Positions 5,644-13,921 of a stretch of DNA of 64,000 nt are shown here, piece after piece. This DNA comes from Algiphilus aromaticivorans DG1253 (GTDB taxonomy: Bacteria > Pseudomonadota > Gammaproteobacteria > Nevskiales > Nevskiaceae): the NCBI RefSeq assembly GCF_000733765.1, contig NZ_JPOG01000001.1:1364001-1428000 (forward strand), read 5' to 3'. A model generated the notes under the pieces. That model searched no databases. It was not told the DNA's origin and was given only the letters and a program-made list of their open reading frames with translations. A program made the position numbers and the translations under genes. Every line of letters begins with the position of its first letter. The stretch's first letter is position 1.

Positions 5644-6206
5644 TCCTTCCCGGCCAGGATCTCCACGCGCTCGATGACGACGGCTTCCAGGGGAACATCA
5701 GCGTGGCCGCTGCGGCGACCCGTGGGTACGGCAGCAATGCGGTCGACGACATCCATGCCATCGGTGACGCGGCCGAAGACGGCGTAGCCGTGCGGATCAA
5801 CGCCGCCTGGATTGAGGAAGTCGTTGTCCTTGAGATTGATGAAGAACTGGCTCGTCGCCGAGTTCGGCGCACTGGTACGTGCCATGGCGAGGCTGCCGCG
5901 CTCGTTGTCGAGCTTGTTGCCAGCCTCGTTGGCGATGGGCGAGCGCGTCGGTCGTTGCTGCATGTCGGGGTCCATGCCACCACCCTGGATCATGAAGTCC
6001 GGGATGACGCGGTGAAAGACGGTGCCGTCGTAATGGCCGTCGCGGGCGTACTGCAGGAAGTTCTCGACGCTGGCGGGCGCCTCGTCGGGCGCCAGGGCGA
6101 CGGTGATGGCGCCTTCGCTGGTATGCAGCACGACAGAGGGTGCGGCCCCGGCACCGGCTGCGGCGGTGCCCATGGAAGCGGCGGCGAGGATGTGACGGAT
6201 CTTCAT
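5640..6206 (-). CDS. Peptidylprolyl cis-trans isomerase, cyclophilin type, with signal peptide
   Basis: A 188-residue cyclophilin. An N-terminal signal peptide (basic MKIRH, then an Ala-rich core, likely cleavage near GAGAAPS) points to the periplasm, like E. coli PpiA. The catalytic core shows [13 protein letters not shown], where the Arg is the active-site residue, and [10 protein letters not shown], both standard for the family. The start at 6206 forms ATGA with the stop of dusA, and the gene's own stop forms ATGA with lpxH. Longer readings of the frame lack a convincing start. Expected role: folding of exported proteins. Confidence 0.93.
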
Positions 6207-7231
6207 GCGGGGAGGGTCTCGGTGATGGGCGCCGATGGCGCGGAAAGGGGGTGTGGCACATCGCGCATGAGCGCAATGGCCTCGTCGATGAGGGCTGTGC
6301 CGTCGTCGCGACGGGTGGCTTCGCCGAGCAGGCGCCGAAAGGCGCGGCCGCGTGGCTGCCCGCGGTAAAGCCCGAGCATGTGGCGGGTTATGGCATGCAC
6401 GCGCGTGCCGGCGGCCTGCTCGCGGGCGATATAGTCGCGCATGCGCAGCAGCACGGCCTCGCGGGTGGCTGTGGGCGGTGTGCTGGCGTAGAGGCATTCG
6501 TCGACGTCGTGCAGCAGCCAGGGGTCGTCGATGGCGGTGCGGCCGAGCATGACGCCGTCGAGCGCCCCCAGCTGTGTGCAGGCGGTATCCAGCGTATCGA
6601 GCCCGCCGTTGATGACCACGCGCAGGTCCGGCCGCGCCGCGGCGAGCGCGTGTACGCGCTCGTAGACCAGGGGTGGAATCTCGCGATTCTGCTTCGGTGA
6701 CAGACCCTTCAGCCAGGCCTTGCGCGCGTGCACGATGAGCAGCTCGCAGCCGGCGGCAGCGACGGCATCCGCGAAGTCAGTGAGGAAGGCGGGTTCGTCC
6801 TGTTCGTCGACGCCGATGCGGCATTTCACGGTGACGGGCAGGCGCGTCGCGGCGCGCATGGCGGCCACGCAATCGGCGACCAGCGCGGGTTCGCGCATCA
6901 GGCAGGCGCCGAAGCCGCCACCTTGAACCCGGTCGGAGGGGCAGCCACAGTTGAGATTGACCTCGTCGTAGCCCCAGTCCTCGGCCATCGCGGCGCAGTG
7001 CGCCAGCGCGGCCGGGTCGCTGCCGCCGAGCTGCAGCGCCACCGGGTGCTCGGCCGCGTCGAAAGCGAGATGTCGATGCGCGTCGCCGTGCAACAACGCG
7101 CCGGTGGTGACCATTTCGGTATACAGCCGCGCGCGCGCGCTGATCTGCCGCAGGAAGTAGCGGCAGTGGCGATCCGTGTGCTCCATCATGGGTGCGACAC
7201 AGAATCGATGAGAGAGGGCGCTGGCGCTCAT
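6203..7231 (-). CDS. dusA: tRNA-dihydrouridine(20/20a) synthase
   Basis: A flavin enzyme reducing uridine to dihydrouridine at tRNA positions 20/20a. The 342 residues show the DusA start [13 protein letters not shown], the catalytic segment [11 protein letters not shown] (C97 expected to be the general acid) and [10 protein letters not shown]. The start at 7231 was chosen where homology begins; the frame runs further upstream without family resemblance. DusA rather than DusB/C is supported by the first motif. Head gene of a tight minus-strand unit with the cyclophilin and lpxH, divergent from the hydroquinone reductase gene across 73 bases. Confidence 0.95.
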
Positions 7232-7304
7232 GTCGCTATTGTAGCGGGCGGTGGCGCCGGGGCCTTCAATCTCCCGGTATCGACCAACCTCATAGGAGCA
7301 GATC

Positions 7305-8243
7305 ATGGGCAGGCTCGTTGACGGCGTTTGGTACGACGAGTGGTACGACACCGAGAGCACCGGCGGTGCCTTCCGACGCGAGGATGCGGGCTTCCGCCAT
7401 TGGGTGACCGCCGATGGCAGCCCGGGACCGAGCGGCGAGGGCGGCTTCGCCGCCGAATCCGGTCGCTATCACCTCTATGTCTCGATGGCCTGCCCGTGGG
7501 CGCACCGCACGCTGATCTTCCGCAAGATCAAGGCGCTGGAGCCGCACATCGGTGTCACGGTGGTGCATCCGCACATGCTGAGCAACGGCTGGGAGTATCG
7601 GCCGGAGCCCGAGCCGCTGCACGGCTATCACTTTCATTACCAGCTCTATACACACGTCAAGCCGGACTACAGCGGACGCGTGACCGTGCCGGTGCTGTGG
7701 GACAAGCAGCGCGACACCATCGTCTCGAACGAGTCGGCCGAGATCATCCGGATGTTTAACAGCGCCTTCGACGACATCACCGGTAATCGCGACGACTATT
7801 ATCCCGAGGCGCTGCGCGGCGACATCGATTCGATCAATGGCCTCGTCTACGACAGCGTCAACAATGGCGTTTATCGCTGCGGCTTCGCGACAACCCAGGA
7901 AGCCTACGAGAAGCCCTTCCACGAACTCTTCGGCGCGCTCGACGAGCTGGAGGCGCGGCTGCAGGCGCAGCGCTGGCTATGCGGCGAGCATCTGACCGAG
8001 GCGGACTGGCGGCTGTTCACCACGCTGATGCGCTTCGACGCCGTCTACTATGGCCACTTCAAGTGCAACAAGCGGCGCATCCGTGACTACCCGGCGCTGT
8101 ATCGCTATCTGCACGCGCTGCTGGCTGTGCCGGGTGTCTCCGAAACGGTGGATCTGGAGCAGTGCAAACAGCATTACTACTACAGCCACGCGACGATCAA
8201 TCCAACGCGCGTGGTGCCGCTGGGCCCGGATCCTCTCGTCTAA
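7305..8243 (+). CDS. yqjG: Glutathionyl-hydroquinone reductase (Xi-class glutathione transferase)
   Basis: This cytoplasmic enzyme removes glutathione from glutathionyl-hydroquinones using a second glutathione, protecting against quinone stress. The 312-residue protein carries the catalytic C63 in MACPWAHR, the family's CPWAH signature, and HPHMLSNGWEY downstream. An AGGAG ribosome site lies seven bases before the ATG. It stands alone on the plus strand and ends five bases from the convergent phosphorylase gene. Length and motifs are typical of the YqjG/PcpF group. Confidence 0.94.
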   Translation: MGRLVDGVWYDEWYDTESTGGAFRREDAGFRHWVTADGSPGPSGEGGFAAESGRYHLYVSMACPWAHRTLIFRKIKALEPHIGVTVVHPHMLSNGWEYRPEPEPLHGYHFHYQLYTHVKPDYSGRVTVPVLWDKQRDTIVSNESAEIIRMFNSAFDDITGNRDDYYPEALRGDIDSINGLVYDSVNNGVYRCGFATTQEAYEKPFHELFGALDELEARLQAQRWLCGEHLTEADWRLFTTLMRFDAVYYGHFKCNKRRIRDYPALYRYLHALLAVPGVSETVDLEQCKQHYYYSHATINPTRVVPLGPDPLV

Positions 8244-8248
8244 GACTC

Positions 8249-9691
8249 TCAGAAGATGCGTGAGATCATCCGGCCGGTGCGCTCATCGCGGTAGCGCACG
8301 GTGGTTTTCTTGAAATTGAGGTCGACGAAGAGCAGGGCCTTCGCGTCGCCGTTCTTCCACTGCATGCTGACGCTGGTGTCATTCGAATAGACCAACTCGA
8401 ACGTGCCGCGAAAGGCCGGATGCGAGCAGCGGAATTCCAGAAGCTGGATCAGTCGACGCACTACCGGCTTCTCGGTGGCCTCGGCCACCGCTTCCAGGTC
8501 GAAATAGGTGCGATTGATGTCGCGCAGCTCGCCGGTGTGCTCCATCAATTCCTCGTCATTGGTGCCCGCGAGCAGACCGACGTAGTAGATCTGCGGAATG
8601 CCTGGCGCGAAGAGCTGGATGGCGCGCGCGGCAATATAGGCGTCGTCGTTCTGCTTGAGGGCGTCGTAGAAGGTGCAGGTAAGCTGATAGATCGCCCCCA
8701 CGCTGTGCACATTTGCCGCTGATCGCCGCAGGATCGGATCGGCGCTGCGCTGCGAGACATTGTCGATGACGGCCTGGATCTTGTCGGCAGGCAGGATGCC
8801 CTCGACGTCCGGAATGCAGATGCCGTCGTGGGTGTCCAGCACCGTGATCTGGTTGCGCGGGCAGACGCGCAGCCAGTTCTTCAGATGCACGCTGTTGGCA
8901 TCGAGCAGGGAGTAGAGCAACAGCGGCGGCAGCGCAAAGCCGTAGGGCCGCATCCCGCGCATGCCGATGGCGAACTGGTAGCTGGAATGGTCGTGCACCT
9001 CGGGCAGCACTTCGGCGCCCATGCGGTTGGCGGTGCGGTGAAACCAACCCAGGATGTCGTAGACATCGGGCTCGACCAGGAAGCAGCTCGTGCCGATCTT
9101 CTTGGTGGTGTAGCCGAAGGCATCGAGCCGGAACAGCTTGACGCCATGACCGGTCATGACGCGGAGGTTTTCCTCCATGAAATCGTAGGTCGCCTCGGCG
9201 TCGTAATTCAGGTCGACCTGCTTCTCGGTGAAGGTGCACCAGACGCGCTTCTTCTCGCCATTGGCCAGGGTAACCTCGCGGAAGGGCTCCTTCTCCTTGC
9301 GAATGTGGATCTTCGCGAGGTCGTCGGATGTGATCTCGCCGAGGGCGTCAACGTCGACGAAGAGCTCGGCGTAGCGGCTGTCGCGGCCGTTGGCCAGGAA
9401 ATCCTTGAACTCTGGCGATTCGTCGGCGATGTGATTCAGCACCAGATCCAGGCAGAGGTCGTACTCGGCAGCCAGTGCCTCGACTTCCTCCCAGCTGCCG
9501 TAGCGCGGGTCGATCTCGCGATGCGTCAATGGCGAAAACCCACCGTCGGCATTGGAGGGAAAGGGCGGCAGCAGGTGCACGCCGCCGAAGCAGCGCGGGA
9601 AATGCTCGCGCATCACCTTGTGCAGGTCGCTGATGCTGCTGCCCATCCGGTCCGGATAGGCGATGAGGTGAGGCAGGTTGCGCAGGATCAT
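8249..9691 (-). CDS. GH13 subfamily 18 sugar phosphorylase (sucrose phosphorylase-like)
   Basis: A 480-residue alpha-retaining glucoside phosphorylase, which would split an alpha-glucoside with phosphate to glucose 1-phosphate. Predicted catalytic residues sit almost exactly where they do in Bifidobacterium sucrose phosphorylase: nucleophile D190 (FRLDAFGY), acid/base E231 (LPEVHDH) and D289 (LDTHDGI). FALPPLLLYSLL and the C-terminal PQIYYVGLLAGTND are also shared. The acceptor-side loop around residues 125-150 differs from sucrose phosphorylase, so the substrate may be sucrose, sucrose 6-phosphate, glucosylglycerol or glucosylglycerate; all four activities occur in GH13_18. It is last in a five-gene minus-strand cluster, 28 bases after the SDR. 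The ribosome site is weak. Confidence 0.9.
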   Translation of the reverse strand: MILRNLPHLIAYPDRMGSSISDLHKVMREHFPRCFGGVHLLPPFPSNADGGFSPLTHREIDPRYGSWEEVEALAAEYDLCLDLVLNHIADESPEFKDFLANGRDSRYAELFVDVDALGEITSDDLAKIHIRKEKEPFREVTLANGEKKRVWCTFTEKQVDLNYDAEATYDFMEENLRVMTGHGVKLFRLDAFGYTTKKIGTSCFLVEPDVYDILGWFHRTANRMGAEVLPEVHDHSSYQFAIGMRGMRPYGFALPPLLLYSLLDANSVHLKNWLRVCPRNQITVLDTHDGICIPDVEGILPADKIQAVIDNVSQRSADPILRRSAANVHSVGAIYQLTCTFYDALKQNDDAYIAARAIQLFAPGIPQIYYVGLLAGTNDEELMEHTGELRDINRTYFDLEAVAEATEKPVVRRLIQLLEFRCSHPAFRGTFELVYSNDTSVSMQWKNGDAKALLFVDLNFKKTTVRYRDERTGRMISRIF

Positions 9692-9719
9692 GGGCGAGGA
9701 ATGTGGGATGGAATGGGGG

Positions 9720-10481
9720 TCAGCTCAGGTAGCCGCCGTCGACGGTCAAGGAGGTGCCGGTAACATAGCTGGATGCGTCCGAGGCCAGGTAGAGCACGGC
9801 CGGCGCGATCTCTTCGGGTTGGGCCGTGCGCTTCATCGGGATGTATCGCAGGAATCGTTCCAGTTGCTCCTCGTCACGGGTCAGCGCGCTGGCGAACTTC
9901 GTCTCGGTCAGCCCTGGCAACACGCAGTTGCAACGAATGCCCCAGTCGGCGCACTCCTTGGCGAAGGCCTGCGTCATATTGATGACGGCAGCCTTGGTGA
10001 TGGAGTAGATGCCTTGATCGACCGCCGGGCGCACACCGTTGATGCTGGCGATATTCACGATGGCGCCACCGCCGTGCTCGCGCATTCGGTGCGCGACGCG
10101 GGACGACAGGTCGAAATAGCCGCGGATGTTCACCTGCAGCGTCTTGTCGACCATATTGAGGTCGGTATCCGCGATGTGCCCGAAGTAGGGGTTGGTCGCC
10201 GCGTTGTTGACGAGGATGCGGATCGGCCCGGCCTCGCTTTCAGCGCGCGCGACAAGGTCCTCCAGCGCCTCTGGGGTGCCTTGGTGCGCGGCGATGGCCG
10301 TCGCCTTGCCACCGGCGGAACGGATCGATTCGGCGACGGCGTCACAGGCTTCCTGCTTGCGGCTGGAGATGATGACGTGAGCGCCGTGCTCGGCGAGCAG
10401 GCGGGCGGTGGCTTCGCCGATGCCTCTGGAGGCGCCGGTGACGAGGGCAACCCGGTCGCTGAGGTCGAAAAGTTTATGCAT
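9720..10481 (-). CDS. Short-chain dehydrogenase/reductase
   Basis: A 253-residue classical SDR, an NAD(P)-dependent alcohol dehydrogenase or ketone reductase. The nucleotide-binding TGASRGIG is at residues 15-22, NNAA at 92-95, N118, and the catalytic triad S146, Y159 (YSITK) and K163 are all present. The C-terminus TGTSLTVDGGYLS is typical. Residues SSRKQ after the second strand favour NADP(H). AGGGAG precedes the ATG by six bases. The substrate is unknown. It lies between a BASS transporter and a sugar phosphorylase, 45 and 28 bases away, in one orientation. An APH-fold kinase two genes upstream recalls 4-hydroxyacyl-CoA pathways where an SDR makes the hydroxy group. Confidence 0.9.
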   Translation of the reverse strand: MHKLFDLSDRVALVTGASRGIGEATARLLAEHGAHVIISSRKQEACDAVAESIRSAGGKATAIAAHQGTPEALEDLVARAESEAGPIRILVNNAATNPYFGHIADTDLNMVDKTLQVNIRGYFDLSSRVAHRMREHGGGAIVNIASINGVRPAVDQGIYSITKAAVINMTQAFAKECADWGIRCNCVLPGLTETKFASALTRDEEQLERFLRYIPMKRTAQPEEIAPAVLYLASDASSYVTGTSLTVDGGYLS

Positions 10482-10526
10482 GGCGTCTCCCTGGGCGTTG
10501 GCCCCGGTTGTTTGAGGTGGAAGCGG

Positions 10527-11423
10527 TCAGGTCGCGACGGGTAGAGGTGGCAGGCGCCGACGGCCGATCACGATCAGGACGGTACCAAAGCCGAACATCA
10601 GCACTCCGTAGACCGCCGACGGCACCGACATCGCCGGTGATTCCAGCAGCGTCAGAGTGATGAGCAGGCCCAGGGTGCCGTTCTTGATGCCCAGCTCCAT
10701 GGCGCAGGTCAGCGCATCGCGCGGGCTGAGTCCGACGAAGGCGCCGCCGAACAGCCCCATAACGATTCCCGCGATATTGAGCAGCGCCACGGCAATGCCG
10801 GCGTCGCGGAACATTGGTATGGCGTCGGCGCCGAGCTGGGCAACGATCAGCACGATGAGCACGGCCAGTACGATGAGACCGAAGGCACCGACGACGCGCT
10901 CGGCACGTGCCGCCAACGCCGGCTTCCAGCCGCGCAGCGCCATACCAATGGCTACAGGCAGGATGACGATAGCGCCGAGGGTGCCGACGGTGCGCAGGAA
11001 GGGCAGGCGCAGCTCGGCCGCAGCCTCGGCGAGATCGGGCCGCAGCGGGAAGAGCTGAAGCGCCAGGTTGATGATCAGCGGCAGGCTCAGCACCGTGATC
11101 AGGCTGGCGGTGACGGTCAGCGTGATGGATAGCGCCACATTGCCGCGCGCGAAGAAGGTGAAGATGTTGGAGGTCGTCCCGCCCGGGCAAGCGGCGATGA
11201 CGACCAGGCCCACCGCCAGCGCCGGGTCCATGGGTAGCACCCACGCCAGCGCCAGCGCGATGAGTGGCATGAGCACTACCTGCGCCGCCGTCCCGAAGCT
11301 CGTCGCGCGCGGGTAGACCACGATTTCACGGAAATCACGCGGGCGCAGCGTCAGCCCGATGCCGGTCATGATGACGAAGAGCGCCAGCGGTAGGCCGATA
11401 TCGATCAGCAGCGAGCTTTCCAA
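10527..11423 (-). CDS. Bile acid:sodium symporter family (BASS) transporter
   Basis: An integral inner-membrane protein of 298 residues with about nine to ten hydrophobic helices. The segments GLVVIAACPGGTTSNIFTFFARGN and MELGIKNGTLGLLITL match the conserved crossing helices of sodium-coupled BASS transporters, which carry organic anions such as bile acids, pyruvate or pantoate. It appears to use a TTG start at 11423 preceded by GGAG at about seven bases; no ATG nearer the N-terminus fits. It lies 35 bases after the phosphotransferase gene and 45 before the SDR, suggesting import of an organic acid used by its neighbours. The substrate cannot be read from sequence. Confidence 0.88.
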   Translation of the reverse strand: MESSLLIDIGLPLALFVIMTGIGLTLRPRDFREIVVYPRATSFGTAAQVVLMPLIALALAWVLPMDPALAVGLVVIAACPGGTTSNIFTFFARGNVALSITLTVTASLITVLSLPLIINLALQLFPLRPDLAEAAAELRLPFLRTVGTLGAIVILPVAIGMALRGWKPALAARAERVVGAFGLIVLAVLIVLIVAQLGADAIPMFRDAGIAVALLNIAGIVMGLFGGAFVGLSPRDALTCAMELGIKNGTLGLLITLTLLESPAMSVPSAVYGVLMFGFGTVLIVIGRRRLPPLPVAT

Positions 11424-11458
11424 GCGAGGCTCCGGAAGAGGGGCGGGAGAGTTGGGGT

Positions 11459-12523
11459 CTAGATGCCGGCGACGTGCGCGGCGCGCTTGACCAGCAGATG
11501 CACCATCGGGCCGAAGTCGCGATAGCGGGGGTTGCTCGTCTGGCCGGCCGCGTAGCGGTAGTAGATCTGCTGCGCGATCACGCCCAGGCGAAACAGGCCG
11601 AAGGCGATGAGAAAGGCGGGATCTTCCACCTTCTGCCCGGTCTGCTTCTCATAGAAGGCGATCACCTCGTCGCGCGTCATCATTCCCGGCAGATGCGAGG
11701 GCTGCATGCGCAACGCGGCGAGCTCATCGTCATCCCCGGCTTCGATCCAGTAGGCCAGCGCGCAGCCGAGATCGAGCTGCGGATCGCCCACTGTGCACAT
11801 CTCCCAGTCCAGCACACCGATGATGCGCAGCTGCTCGTCGGGTGAAAGCACGACGTTGTCGAAGCGGTAATCGTTGTGGATCAGGCTGGCGCGGCCGTTC
11901 TCTGGTCGCTGATTCTCGTCGAGCCAGCGCATGATGGCGCTCGCTTCCGGGGCATCCTCGGTGGTCGCCCGCTCGTAGCGCTCGTTCCAGCCGCGCACCT
12001 GGCGCCCGACATAGCCTTCCGGCCGGCCGAGGTCGGTGAGGCCTACCTGCGCCGGATCCAACTGGTGCAGATCAATGAGCGTCTGCCAGAAGGCCTGGCA
12101 CAGGCGGCTGGCGGCCGGTGCGTCCAGCGTCATGCCCTCGGGCAGGTCGCGCCGGAGGATGATTCCCTCCAGCTTTTCCATGACGTAGAAAGGGGCGCCG
12201 ATGACGGATTCATCCTCGCACTCAGCCAGCGGCTCGGGTACCGGGAAATGGCCGTGCAGCCCGGACATGACGCGGTACTCGCGCCCCATGTCGTGACCGG
12301 ACTTGGGCCGCGTGCCGAAGGGCGGGCGGCGCAGAATCAGTGTGCGTCTGCCGAAGTCCAGGGCGTAGGTGATGTTGCTGGCCCCGCCGGGGTATTGCGC
12401 GGTTTCCGGCTCGCCTTCGGGAAGGTCGGGGATGTGCTCGTGCAACCAGGGGAGAAGGCGCTCCAGATCAAGAGCATCCTCGCTGCGGACGGCTTCGGGG
12501 CGGTCGACGAAGCGGTTGCTCAC
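11459..12523 (-). CDS. APH-fold phosphotransferase family protein (LvaA/ACAD10-11 kinase-like)
   Basis: A 354-residue kinase of the aminoglycoside/choline phosphotransferase fold. The catalytic segment HNDYRFDN (H216, N217, D218, N223) and metal-binding DWEMCTVGDP (D239) are intact, and the N-lobe has YPGGASNITY with LILRRPP. This subgroup is typically near or fused to acyl-CoA dehydrogenases; P. putida LvaA and mammalian ACAD10/11 phosphorylate 4-hydroxyacyl compounds. By analogy a hydroxyacyl-CoA or other small hydroxy acid is the likely substrate, but no acyl-CoA dehydrogenase is next to it here. TAGGAG precedes the ATG. It is second in the minus-strand cluster, nine bases after the membrane-anchored unknown. 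Confidence 0.88.
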   Translation of the reverse strand: MSNRFVDRPEAVRSEDALDLERLLPWLHEHIPDLPEGEPETAQYPGGASNITYALDFGRRTLILRRPPFGTRPKSGHDMGREYRVMSGLHGHFPVPEPLAECEDESVIGAPFYVMEKLEGIILRRDLPEGMTLDAPAASRLCQAFWQTLIDLHQLDPAQVGLTDLGRPEGYVGRQVRGWNERYERATTEDAPEASAIMRWLDENQRPENGRASLIHNDYRFDNVVLSPDEQLRIIGVLDWEMCTVGDPQLDLGCALAYWIEAGDDDELAALRMQPSHLPGMMTRDEVIAFYEKQTGQKVEDPAFLIAFGLFRLGVIAQQIYYRYAAGQTSNPRYRDFGPMVHLLVKRAAHVAGI

Positions 12524-12532
12524 GTGGCGCTC

Positions 12533-13159
12533 CTATTGAACGAAGACGGGGCCATGCATGTTCGCGCCCAGAGCGCGGCCGCGAACATCGGCGAGCTGGC
12601 CATCAACGATCAGCGTGTAGCGACCACTCTCCGGCACTGGCAGGGTTGCGATGCGGCTGTTGTTCTCCGGTACCTGCCACTGCGCATCCAGGGTATTGCC
12701 GGTGGCGTCGCGGACCGTGACGTGATCGGCGAGGTCGTCGGCGTGCACCGCACCGTGGAAAAGAATGGCAATCGCCTGCTCGCCACTCAGCGGACCGACG
12801 TGACGAATGCCGAAGCCGCTCTGCGCGGGTTCGGCTGGCCACCAGCGGCGCACGGCGGTGGCGGGGGGATGCTCGCCCGCAGCGACCGCCAGTAGCGAGC
12901 CGTGTGCCGGCCCGGTCTGCGCGATACCCACAGGATTGCGGTAGGGGTCGGAAAGTGCGGCGTCCTCCGAGGCCTCTGCCGATTCACCGGGCGGTACGCC
13001 CGCTTCCTCGAAAATGCGATCCAGCTGCTCCGCGCGCGTCGGGCCGGTCCGCGTTGAGCCCTCGTCGGCGAAGACGGTCTGCAGCCCCGTGAATACAACA
13101 AATGCGACGGCGGCAATGCAGGCTAGAACTAAGAATGAACGGACGATCGTATTCGCCAT
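12533..13159 (-). CDS. Hypothetical membrane-anchored or exported protein
   Basis: A 208-residue protein I do not recognise. An N-terminal hydrophobic helix (about residues 7-30, ending LQTVFADEG) could be an uncleaved anchor or signal peptide. An acidic linker follows, then a C-terminal beta-rich region (about 120-208) with strands around [22 protein letters not shown] and RYTLIVDG. That pattern is reminiscent of bacterial Ig-like or macroglobulin-type domains. The start at 13159 is preceded by an excellent AGGAGGGAG ribosome site; the longer frame upstream is rejected. It heads the five-gene minus-strand cluster and is divergent from ribA across 129 bases. Confidence 0.72.
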
Positions 13160-13288
13160 GGGTCTCCCTCCTGTTGTGTTGCGAAGCCGAACGAGTACGC
13201 CGATTGCCAGCACGCACCCGAGCACGCAGCGATAATAACGCGCATTGCCGCGCGCGCTTGGCGCGCGAGCCAGAAAACGGAGACCCTC

Positions 13289-13921
13289 TTGAGCGAGCAC
13301 AAGGCTGGAGAATCACCGGCGCCGCCCCCGCGCCAGGCGCAAGCGCGCTCCCGGCTGCCCACCCCCTTCGCCACCTTCGATCTTTCGGTCTACGCCGATG
13401 ACGAGGGCAAGGAACACCTTGCCATCACGCTGGGTGATATCCACGGCAGCGGCGAAGAGGCCCCCCTGCTGCGCATTCATTCCGAATGCTTGACCGGCGA
13501 CGCGCTCTTCTCGCTGCGCTGCGACTGTGGTTTCCAGCTGGAGCACGCGCTGCAGCGGATCGCCGTGGAAGGCCGTGGTGTGCTGCTCTATTTGCGCCAG
13601 GAAGGGCGAGGCATCGGCCTGGCCAACAAGATTCGGGCCTACGCGCTGCAGGACCAGGGACATGACACCGTGGAAGCCAACGTGCGGCTGGGCTTTCCGC
13701 CCGACGCCCGCGACTACGGCATCGCGCTGGAGATCCTCGCCGACCTGGGTGTACGCGCGGCGCGGCTTATGACCAACAACCCGCGCAAGATCGCGGCGCT
13801 GGAGGAAGCCGGCATTGAGATCGTCCAGCGCGTCCCGATCGAGTGTGGGCGCAATCCGCACAATGAGAACTATCTGACGACCAAGGCCGGCCGCCTCGGG
13901 CACCTGATGCAGAGCGAGTGA
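13289..13921 (+). CDS. ribA: GTP cyclohydrolase II
   Basis: The first committed enzyme of riboflavin synthesis, converting GTP to a diaminopyrimidine phosphate plus formate. The 210 residues are a stand-alone RibA, not fused to RibB. The zinc ligands are in SECLTGD and LRCDCG (three Cys), followed by [11 protein letters not shown] and MTNNPRK, all diagnostic. It uses a TTG start with GGAG upstream. An N-terminal Pro/Arg-rich extension of about 20 residues precedes the domain. It is followed after seven bases by the ABC1-type kinase gene. A 7-bp GC hairpin (13251-13267) lies in the short leader. Confidence 0.95.

Follow-up and report, generated by a model that had tools for sequence, protein, structure and literature searches.

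In a 64,000-nucleotide stretch of the 3.8-Mb genome of Algiphilus aromaticivorans DG1253 (Gammaproteobacteria, Nevskiales), here called the window (contig NZ_JPOG01000001.1, positions 1,364,001 to 1,428,000), five minus-strand genes encode an anchored protein, an APH-fold kinase, a BASS/SBF-family carrier, a short-chain dehydrogenase/reductase (SDR), and a GH13_18 phosphorylase (Table 1). We propose that this cluster is a composite operon of two joined pathways, in which an old kinase–SDR core of the lva/ACAD11 type has acquired a BASS carrier and a glucosylglycerol phosphorylase (probability roughly 0.62). Each part is of a known kind, and the combination is lineage-specific.

Gene Arrangement and Its Conservation

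The open reading frames and family calls of the original prediction were confirmed. All five genes are present, separated by gaps of 9, 35, 45, and 28 bases, and the GH13_18, SDR, BASS, and APH proteins exceed the cut-offs of TIGR03852, PRK07035, Pfam SBF, and Pfam APH, respectively. From the spacing, one transcript for the five genes is likely. A simple scan finds no minus-strand terminator-like site between them (four terminator-like sites in the scan, compared with 2.4 expected). A scan for sigma-70-like promoters returned no sites anywhere from 8100 to 13500 and therefore says little about transcription of the cluster. Only 5 bases separate the end of the phosphorylase gene from the convergent, glutathione-transferase-like gene next to it, and the anchored-protein gene faces ribA. 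The GC content of the phosphorylase gene is 0.617, compared with 0.646–0.666 for the other four genes, and no Shine-Dalgarno-like sequence was seen upstream of it. An inserted carrier gene and a terminal phosphorylase gene with lower GC and no clear ribosome site favor a junction of two pathways.

We compared gene order across 61 genomes of relatives, the window's own included. Distances within 6 kb were counted from 84 kinase rows (to about E 1e-41), 22 BASS rows (to about 1e-40), 18 phosphorylase rows (E <1e-150), one GT20 row per phosphorylase genome, and, for the anchored protein, every row except a single weak one. The order kinase, carrier, SDR, phosphorylase is retained in a sister Algiphilus genome (G001; identities of 72, 71, 79, and 88%), and the four-gene arrangement is therefore not chance. 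The full gene set within 6 kb was not found in the other 59 genomes. Conservation of all five genes as a general rule was rejected because, among the relatives, the ordered four enzymes were found in G001 alone, together with a stub of the anchored protein. The co-occurrence of the five families within 6 kb that the original prediction raised thus extends to pairs, which are widespread, and the four-enzyme set turned up in a single genus.

The pairs differ in how often they are found together. SDR and kinase genes lie within 6 kb of each other in 30 of the 50 genomes that have both, always on the same strand (30/30), and in 27 of those 30 no phosphorylase lies within 6 kb of the pair. The phosphorylase is within 6 kb of an SDR in 3/16 genomes with both. 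It is more than 6 kb from any kinase row in 15 of the 18 phosphorylase genomes, and its position varies among relatives. Comparative gene order supports the earlier suggestion that two pathways are joined here. Searches of the literature on the component families and on Algiphilus gave no report of the combination among the matches listed, which leaves its absence unproven.

The Phosphorylase Is Predicted to Act on Glucosylglycerol

The GH13_18 protein scores 478.6 against the TIGR03852 sucrose phosphorylase model (cut-off 334.4). Its best PDB relatives are 9j1u, 7xdq (MaGGP), and 7xdr (E 1.5e-233 to 1.9e-231); 9j1u is labeled sucrose phosphorylase in the PDB copy, yet it is the MsGGP entry of PMC11787520. 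The match to the Marinobacter MaGGP/GGoP and MsGGP enzymes (EC 2.4.1.359) is nearly full-length, covering residues 1–474.

Two sets of residues bear on specificity. Loop A of the window protein carries VGAIYQ at residue 331, ending in Gln336. This motif marks glucosylglycerol specificity, while glucosylglycerate phosphorylases, which GH13_18 also takes in, have a Glu in loop A (PMC7178133). In addition, 14 of 14 checked catalytic and ligand positions of MsGGP are matched (D49, H87, R131, R188, D190, Y194, E231, H233, H288, D289, Y335, Q336, R390, and R394). Residues of MsGGP bind glucose, glycerol, and phosphate; those that bind glucose are common to GH13_18 enzymes, and Arg131, Tyr194, Tyr335, and Gln336 are the glycerol-binding acceptor residues (PMC11787520). 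On these grounds we assign the protein as a predicted glucosylglycerol phosphorylase. The NCBIfam name, sucrose phosphorylase, was rejected because loop A lacks the sucrose phosphorylase motif of PMC7178133 and has VGAIYQ instead. Glucosylglycerate phosphorylase was likewise rejected, as loop A ends in Gln.

The motif is found in 26 of 27 phosphorylase loci of relatives (this number excludes the window itself and four named loci from genomes represented once already); L093 has VGSIYQ. In a class-wide sample, a phosphorylase at E <1e-150 is present in only 2/274 genomes. A 541-residue PA-domain-like protein (L067:7558-9183, L069:7795-9183; 42% identical), with a Pfam match slightly below cut-off, adjoins the phosphorylase in G001 and lies between the anchored protein and the phosphorylase in G015.

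The window's genome also encodes a fused S6PP–GT20 protein of 754 residues, adjoining an MFS gene, that scores 741.9 against TIGR02398, the glucosylglycerol-phosphate synthase model (cut-off 569). A trehalose synthase was rejected as the meaning of this GT20 gene, since it passes TIGR02398 and stays below the OtsA cut-off (428.6 against 564.85). The fused synthase gene lies between the MFS gene and a sodium:solute symporter gene (L086:7229-12570), and in L091 and L093 the phosphorylase has a relative (44%) of this MFS protein next to it.

The synthase model TIGR02398 was applied to each of the 61 genomes, and 22 pass it. The phosphorylase is present in 18 of these 22 and in none of the other 39 (Fisher p 5.6e-12, although the genomes are not independent); more distant GH13_18 relatives, at about 30–36% identity, were left out of this count. 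Four genomes, G007, G018, G030, and G032, pass the synthase model with no phosphorylase found at E 1e-150. A synthase match falls within the same fetched stretch in 6/27 phosphorylase loci (L071, L083, and L091–L094), and a GT20 row within 6 kb of the phosphorylase in 2/18 genomes with both.

Marinobacter hosts of the phosphorylase share the fused synthase/phosphatase with the window's genome (PMC10873239). In Marinobacter, however, the synthase lies directly upstream of the phosphorylase in 44 of 49 isolates, the other five lying at contig ends (PMC10873239), whereas here ggpPS is 0.72 Mb away and the phosphorylase closes a kinase–SDR operon. Judged from the residues and co-occurrence above, the phosphorylase most likely recycles glucosylglycerol that the fused synthase/phosphatase of the same cell produces.

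The Kinase and SDR Probably Form an Older Unit

The best PDB matches of the kinase are 9o56, labeled aminoglycoside phosphotransferase (7.2e-84), 3dxp (3.5e-48), and ACAD11, 8v3v (1.6e-43, over residues 15–331 of the window kinase). Unlike ACAD10 and ACAD11, the window kinase is a free-standing protein to which no dehydrogenase is fused. It contains the motifs HxDxxxxN and DWE. The SDR scores 381.5 against PRK07035 (cut-off 373), its nearest solved structures are of DHRS4 (E 1e-45), and it contains the classical motifs TGxxxGIG and YxxxK.

A kinase and an SDR on one strand recall the levulinate/4-hydroxy acid (lva) operon of Pseudomonas, which comprises the LvaA kinase, LvaC dehydrogenase, LvaD SDR, and LvaE CoA ligase. 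The lva region of P. citronellolis has an LvaA-like kinase, a histidine phosphatase, an LvaC-like dehydrogenase, and an LvaD-like SDR (PMC6692424). Kinase–SDR loci of the relatives often include a histidine phosphatase, an acyl-CoA dehydrogenase, or a CoA ligase. LvaA and ACAD10/11 phosphorylate 4-hydroxyacyl-CoAs (PMC12440821, PMC11342911). The window cluster differs from lva in having neither an acyl-CoA dehydrogenase nor a CoA ligase, as judged by the open reading frames and a Pfam scan, and in having a BASS carrier in place of LvaG.

We examined 20 further loci, 17 from the 61 genomes and three from the class sample. An acyl-CoA dehydrogenase (56–65% identity) is present in 16 of them and a histidine phosphatase in 11; because the loci were picked for SDR–kinase closeness, 16/20 is not a base rate. 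In G021, the genes for a histidine phosphatase, acyl-CoA dehydrogenase, kinase, SDR, phosphorylase, and CoA ligase are consecutive on one strand. A kinase tree groups the window kinase with that of G001 and nine others (support 95/95), and adding G042 gives a weakly supported group of 12 rows (84/62), 11 of them SDR-linked (the exception is G029b); the tree tool warned of long branches meeting elsewhere. A CoA ligase is found in the fetched stretch of six of these 11 loci and the dehydrogenase in two, indicating that parts of the unit come and go.

The genome holds a second kinase, 51% identical to the window kinase, at 3.318 Mb. Its neighbors are a LysR gene, an acyl-CoA dehydrogenase, two alpha/beta hydrolases, an SDR (PRK08251), and a polyketide-cyclase-like gene. 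This second cluster (L084:3502-11953) also includes a serine hydrolase of the beta-lactamase family. Its dehydrogenase, encoded at C1 3314957-3316027, is the genome's best match (41%) to that of the G021 cluster, and the enzyme type lacking in the window cluster therefore exists in the genome. The original prediction held that the missing dehydrogenase sets the cluster apart from lva-type pathways. The enzyme is indeed absent from the window cluster; the separation itself is weakened by the second cluster and by some near relatives, in which the same kinase–SDR pair has the dehydrogenase, a histidine phosphatase, or a CoA ligase as a neighbor.

Read from gene order and family, the kinase and SDR would be a separate unit, older than the phosphorylase and carrier in this position. 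This older gene set probably handles oxo- and hydroxy-fatty acids, and the neighbors of the SDR suggest an LvaD-like role for it.

The Carrier and the Anchored Protein

The carrier scores 119.4 bits against Pfam SBF, above the cut-off. It stays below the curated cut-offs of the TIGR00841 bass subfamily (168 against 326.3) and the pantoate carrier PanS (96 against 400 bits). The nearest solved structures are bacterial homologues of the bile-acid symporter, and by family the carrier would be an organic-anion importer. Carrier and SDR are no more than 6 kb apart in 4/20 genomes with both, and the two are neighbors in G001, G003, and G014 as well as here. Its placement between kinase and SDR looks like an addition.

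Neither Pfam nor NCBIfam yields a match to the anchored protein at E 0.001, and one relative compared with Pfam likewise has none. A profile search finds alpha-2-macroglobulin weakly (2.3e-4). The AlphaFold2 model has a mean predicted local distance difference test score of 80.1, rising to about 95–97 from residue 121 on, and its best fold matches are to E. coli and Salmonella alpha-2-macroglobulin (Z 13.3 and 12.9), followed by the S-layer protein SbsC (Z 10.9) and the copper protein CopC (Z 8.9). Residues 113–208 resemble the bacterial MG0 domain, with a root-mean-square deviation of 2.1 Å over 95 residues. Unlike alpha-2-macroglobulin, the protein is a single domain on a membrane-anchored linker, 10% identical and without the rest of the large protein. 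The modeled MG0-like fold reveals no function.

Relatives of the anchored protein occur in 41/61 genomes at E 0.001 or better, and in an alignment of 24 sequences the N-terminal helix is followed by a linker that varies and a C-terminal domain that is conserved. Its gene lies within 6 kb of the SDR gene in half of the genomes with both (19/38; same strand in 19/19) and of the phosphorylase gene in 7/16, all on the same strand. In many relatives it heads the SDR operon and adjoins ribA, and several also have dusA–PPI–lpxH. Across several families of the order, members of this protein family keep a place next to the SDR or ribA.

Table 1. Genes of the Cluster and Its Flanks (Positions in the Window)
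Feature	Length (aa)	Position	Strand	Basis or remark
Predicted 2-O-alpha-glucosylglycerol phosphorylase, GH13_18	480	8249-9691	minus	NCBIfam label sucrose phosphorylase; PDB matches and loop residues
SDR, PRK07035 type	253	9720-10481	minus	NCBIfam cut-off passed
BASS/SBF-family carrier	298	10527-11423	minus	Pfam SBF cut-off passed
APH-fold kinase, ACAD10/11 sort	354	11459-12523	minus	Pfam APH cut-off passed; PDB matches
Anchored protein (N-terminal helix 2-33, low-confidence linker, MG0/Ig-like domain ~113-208)	208	12533-13159	minus	AlphaFold2
ribA		13289-13921	plus	Conserved neighbor on the divergent side, outside the operon
dusA		6203-7360	minus	Outside the operon; other flank here and in several relatives

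Proposed Function and Alternative Readings

In the composite operon that we favor, a conserved chromosomal site reaching from the dusA side to ribA would hold the old core of anchored MG0-like protein, lva/ACAD11-type kinase, and PRK07035 SDR. Like LvaD, the SDR would probably reduce an oxo-acyl-CoA to the hydroxyacyl-CoA, whose hydroxyl the kinase, like LvaA and ACAD10/11, would phosphorylate. An acyl-CoA dehydrogenase encoded outside the window cluster, for which the enzyme of the second lva-like cluster could serve, would then remove the phosphate, and the product would feed beta-oxidation. The carrier, added later, may import a carboxylate. The phosphorylase, added at the end, would convert the osmolyte glucosylglycerol, which protects against salt, and phosphate to glucose 1-phosphate and glycerol.

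Several points weigh against this proposal. The enzyme activities and substrates it names are predicted, as are the single transcript and joint regulation; the genes, their order, their family signatures, and their co-occurrence are what it is built on. The likeness to lva is judged from gene neighbors and the ACAD11 match. SDR and kinase are not within 6 kb of each other in 20 of the 50 genomes that have both. In the class sample, 3/9 SDR genomes have a same-strand kinase at a distance of 3 kb or less, with one more on the opposite strand, and the link is weaker beyond the order. Among the 11 SDR-linked loci with the window type of kinase, only G013 and G021 have the acyl-CoA dehydrogenase, so this kinase may act otherwise. 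The window's genome has no close copy of the G021 cluster dehydrogenase (best match, the 41% above), and its use of the second-cluster enzyme is a guess. Finally, a stop cuts the anchored protein of G001 to a stub, and the other four genes can probably do without it.

The five genes could instead be chance neighbors, transcribed and regulated separately, with the phosphorylase a stray insertion at the end of a kinase–SDR operon. The varied location of the phosphorylase among relatives, the low GC of its gene and the lack of a visible Shine-Dalgarno-like sequence, and the rarity of the carrier near the SDR would all fit. Gaps of 9–45 bases, an order shared by the two Algiphilus genomes, and the lack of a minus-strand terminator-like site between the genes in the simple scan argue otherwise, and we regard chance as unlikely. 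It is very improbable that all five genes serve glucosylglycerol salvage, in which the glycerol freed would be oxidized by the SDR or phosphorylated by the kinase and the carrier would move the solute or a product. Tight spacing, the order retained in two Algiphilus genomes, the phosphorylase gene following that of the SDR in G021 too, and the anchored protein's same-strand proximity to the phosphorylase in 7 of 16 genomes speak for such a single purpose. Against it stand the resemblance of the kinase to ACAD11, the phosphorylase's distance from kinase rows in most of its genomes, and the many close kinase–SDR pairs that have acyl-CoA enzymes nearby instead of a phosphorylase. Uptake and degradation of a glucosylated organic acid, for example glucosylglycerate, advanced in the original prediction and compatible with a BASS carrier in the cluster and with glucosylglycerate phosphorylases in GH13_18 (PMC7178133), has next to no likelihood given Gln336 where those enzymes have the loop-A Glu (a position equivalence that we infer; PMC7178133), the glycerol-binding acceptor residues (PMC11787520), and a synthase that passes the model for glucosylglycerol phosphate in this genome and in 18/18 phosphorylase genomes.

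Returning to the composite operon, a further suggestion is that Algiphilus has placed osmolyte salvage and hydroxy-/oxo-acid catabolism in one regulated unit that answers to one signal, such as algal contact or a fall in salinity, by drawing on both carbon stores, with the anchored protein meeting the imported substrate as its partner at the surface or in the periplasm. We consider this quite unlikely. A tight cluster in one genus need not equal one pathway, and caution is warranted in reading it so. The cluster contains a recurrent kinase–SDR unit, related to lva and ACAD10/11 metabolism, that often occupies one chromosomal site in these bacteria. Close homologues across the order carry the name sucrose phosphorylase under the standard model and are most likely phosphorylases of glucosylglycerol.

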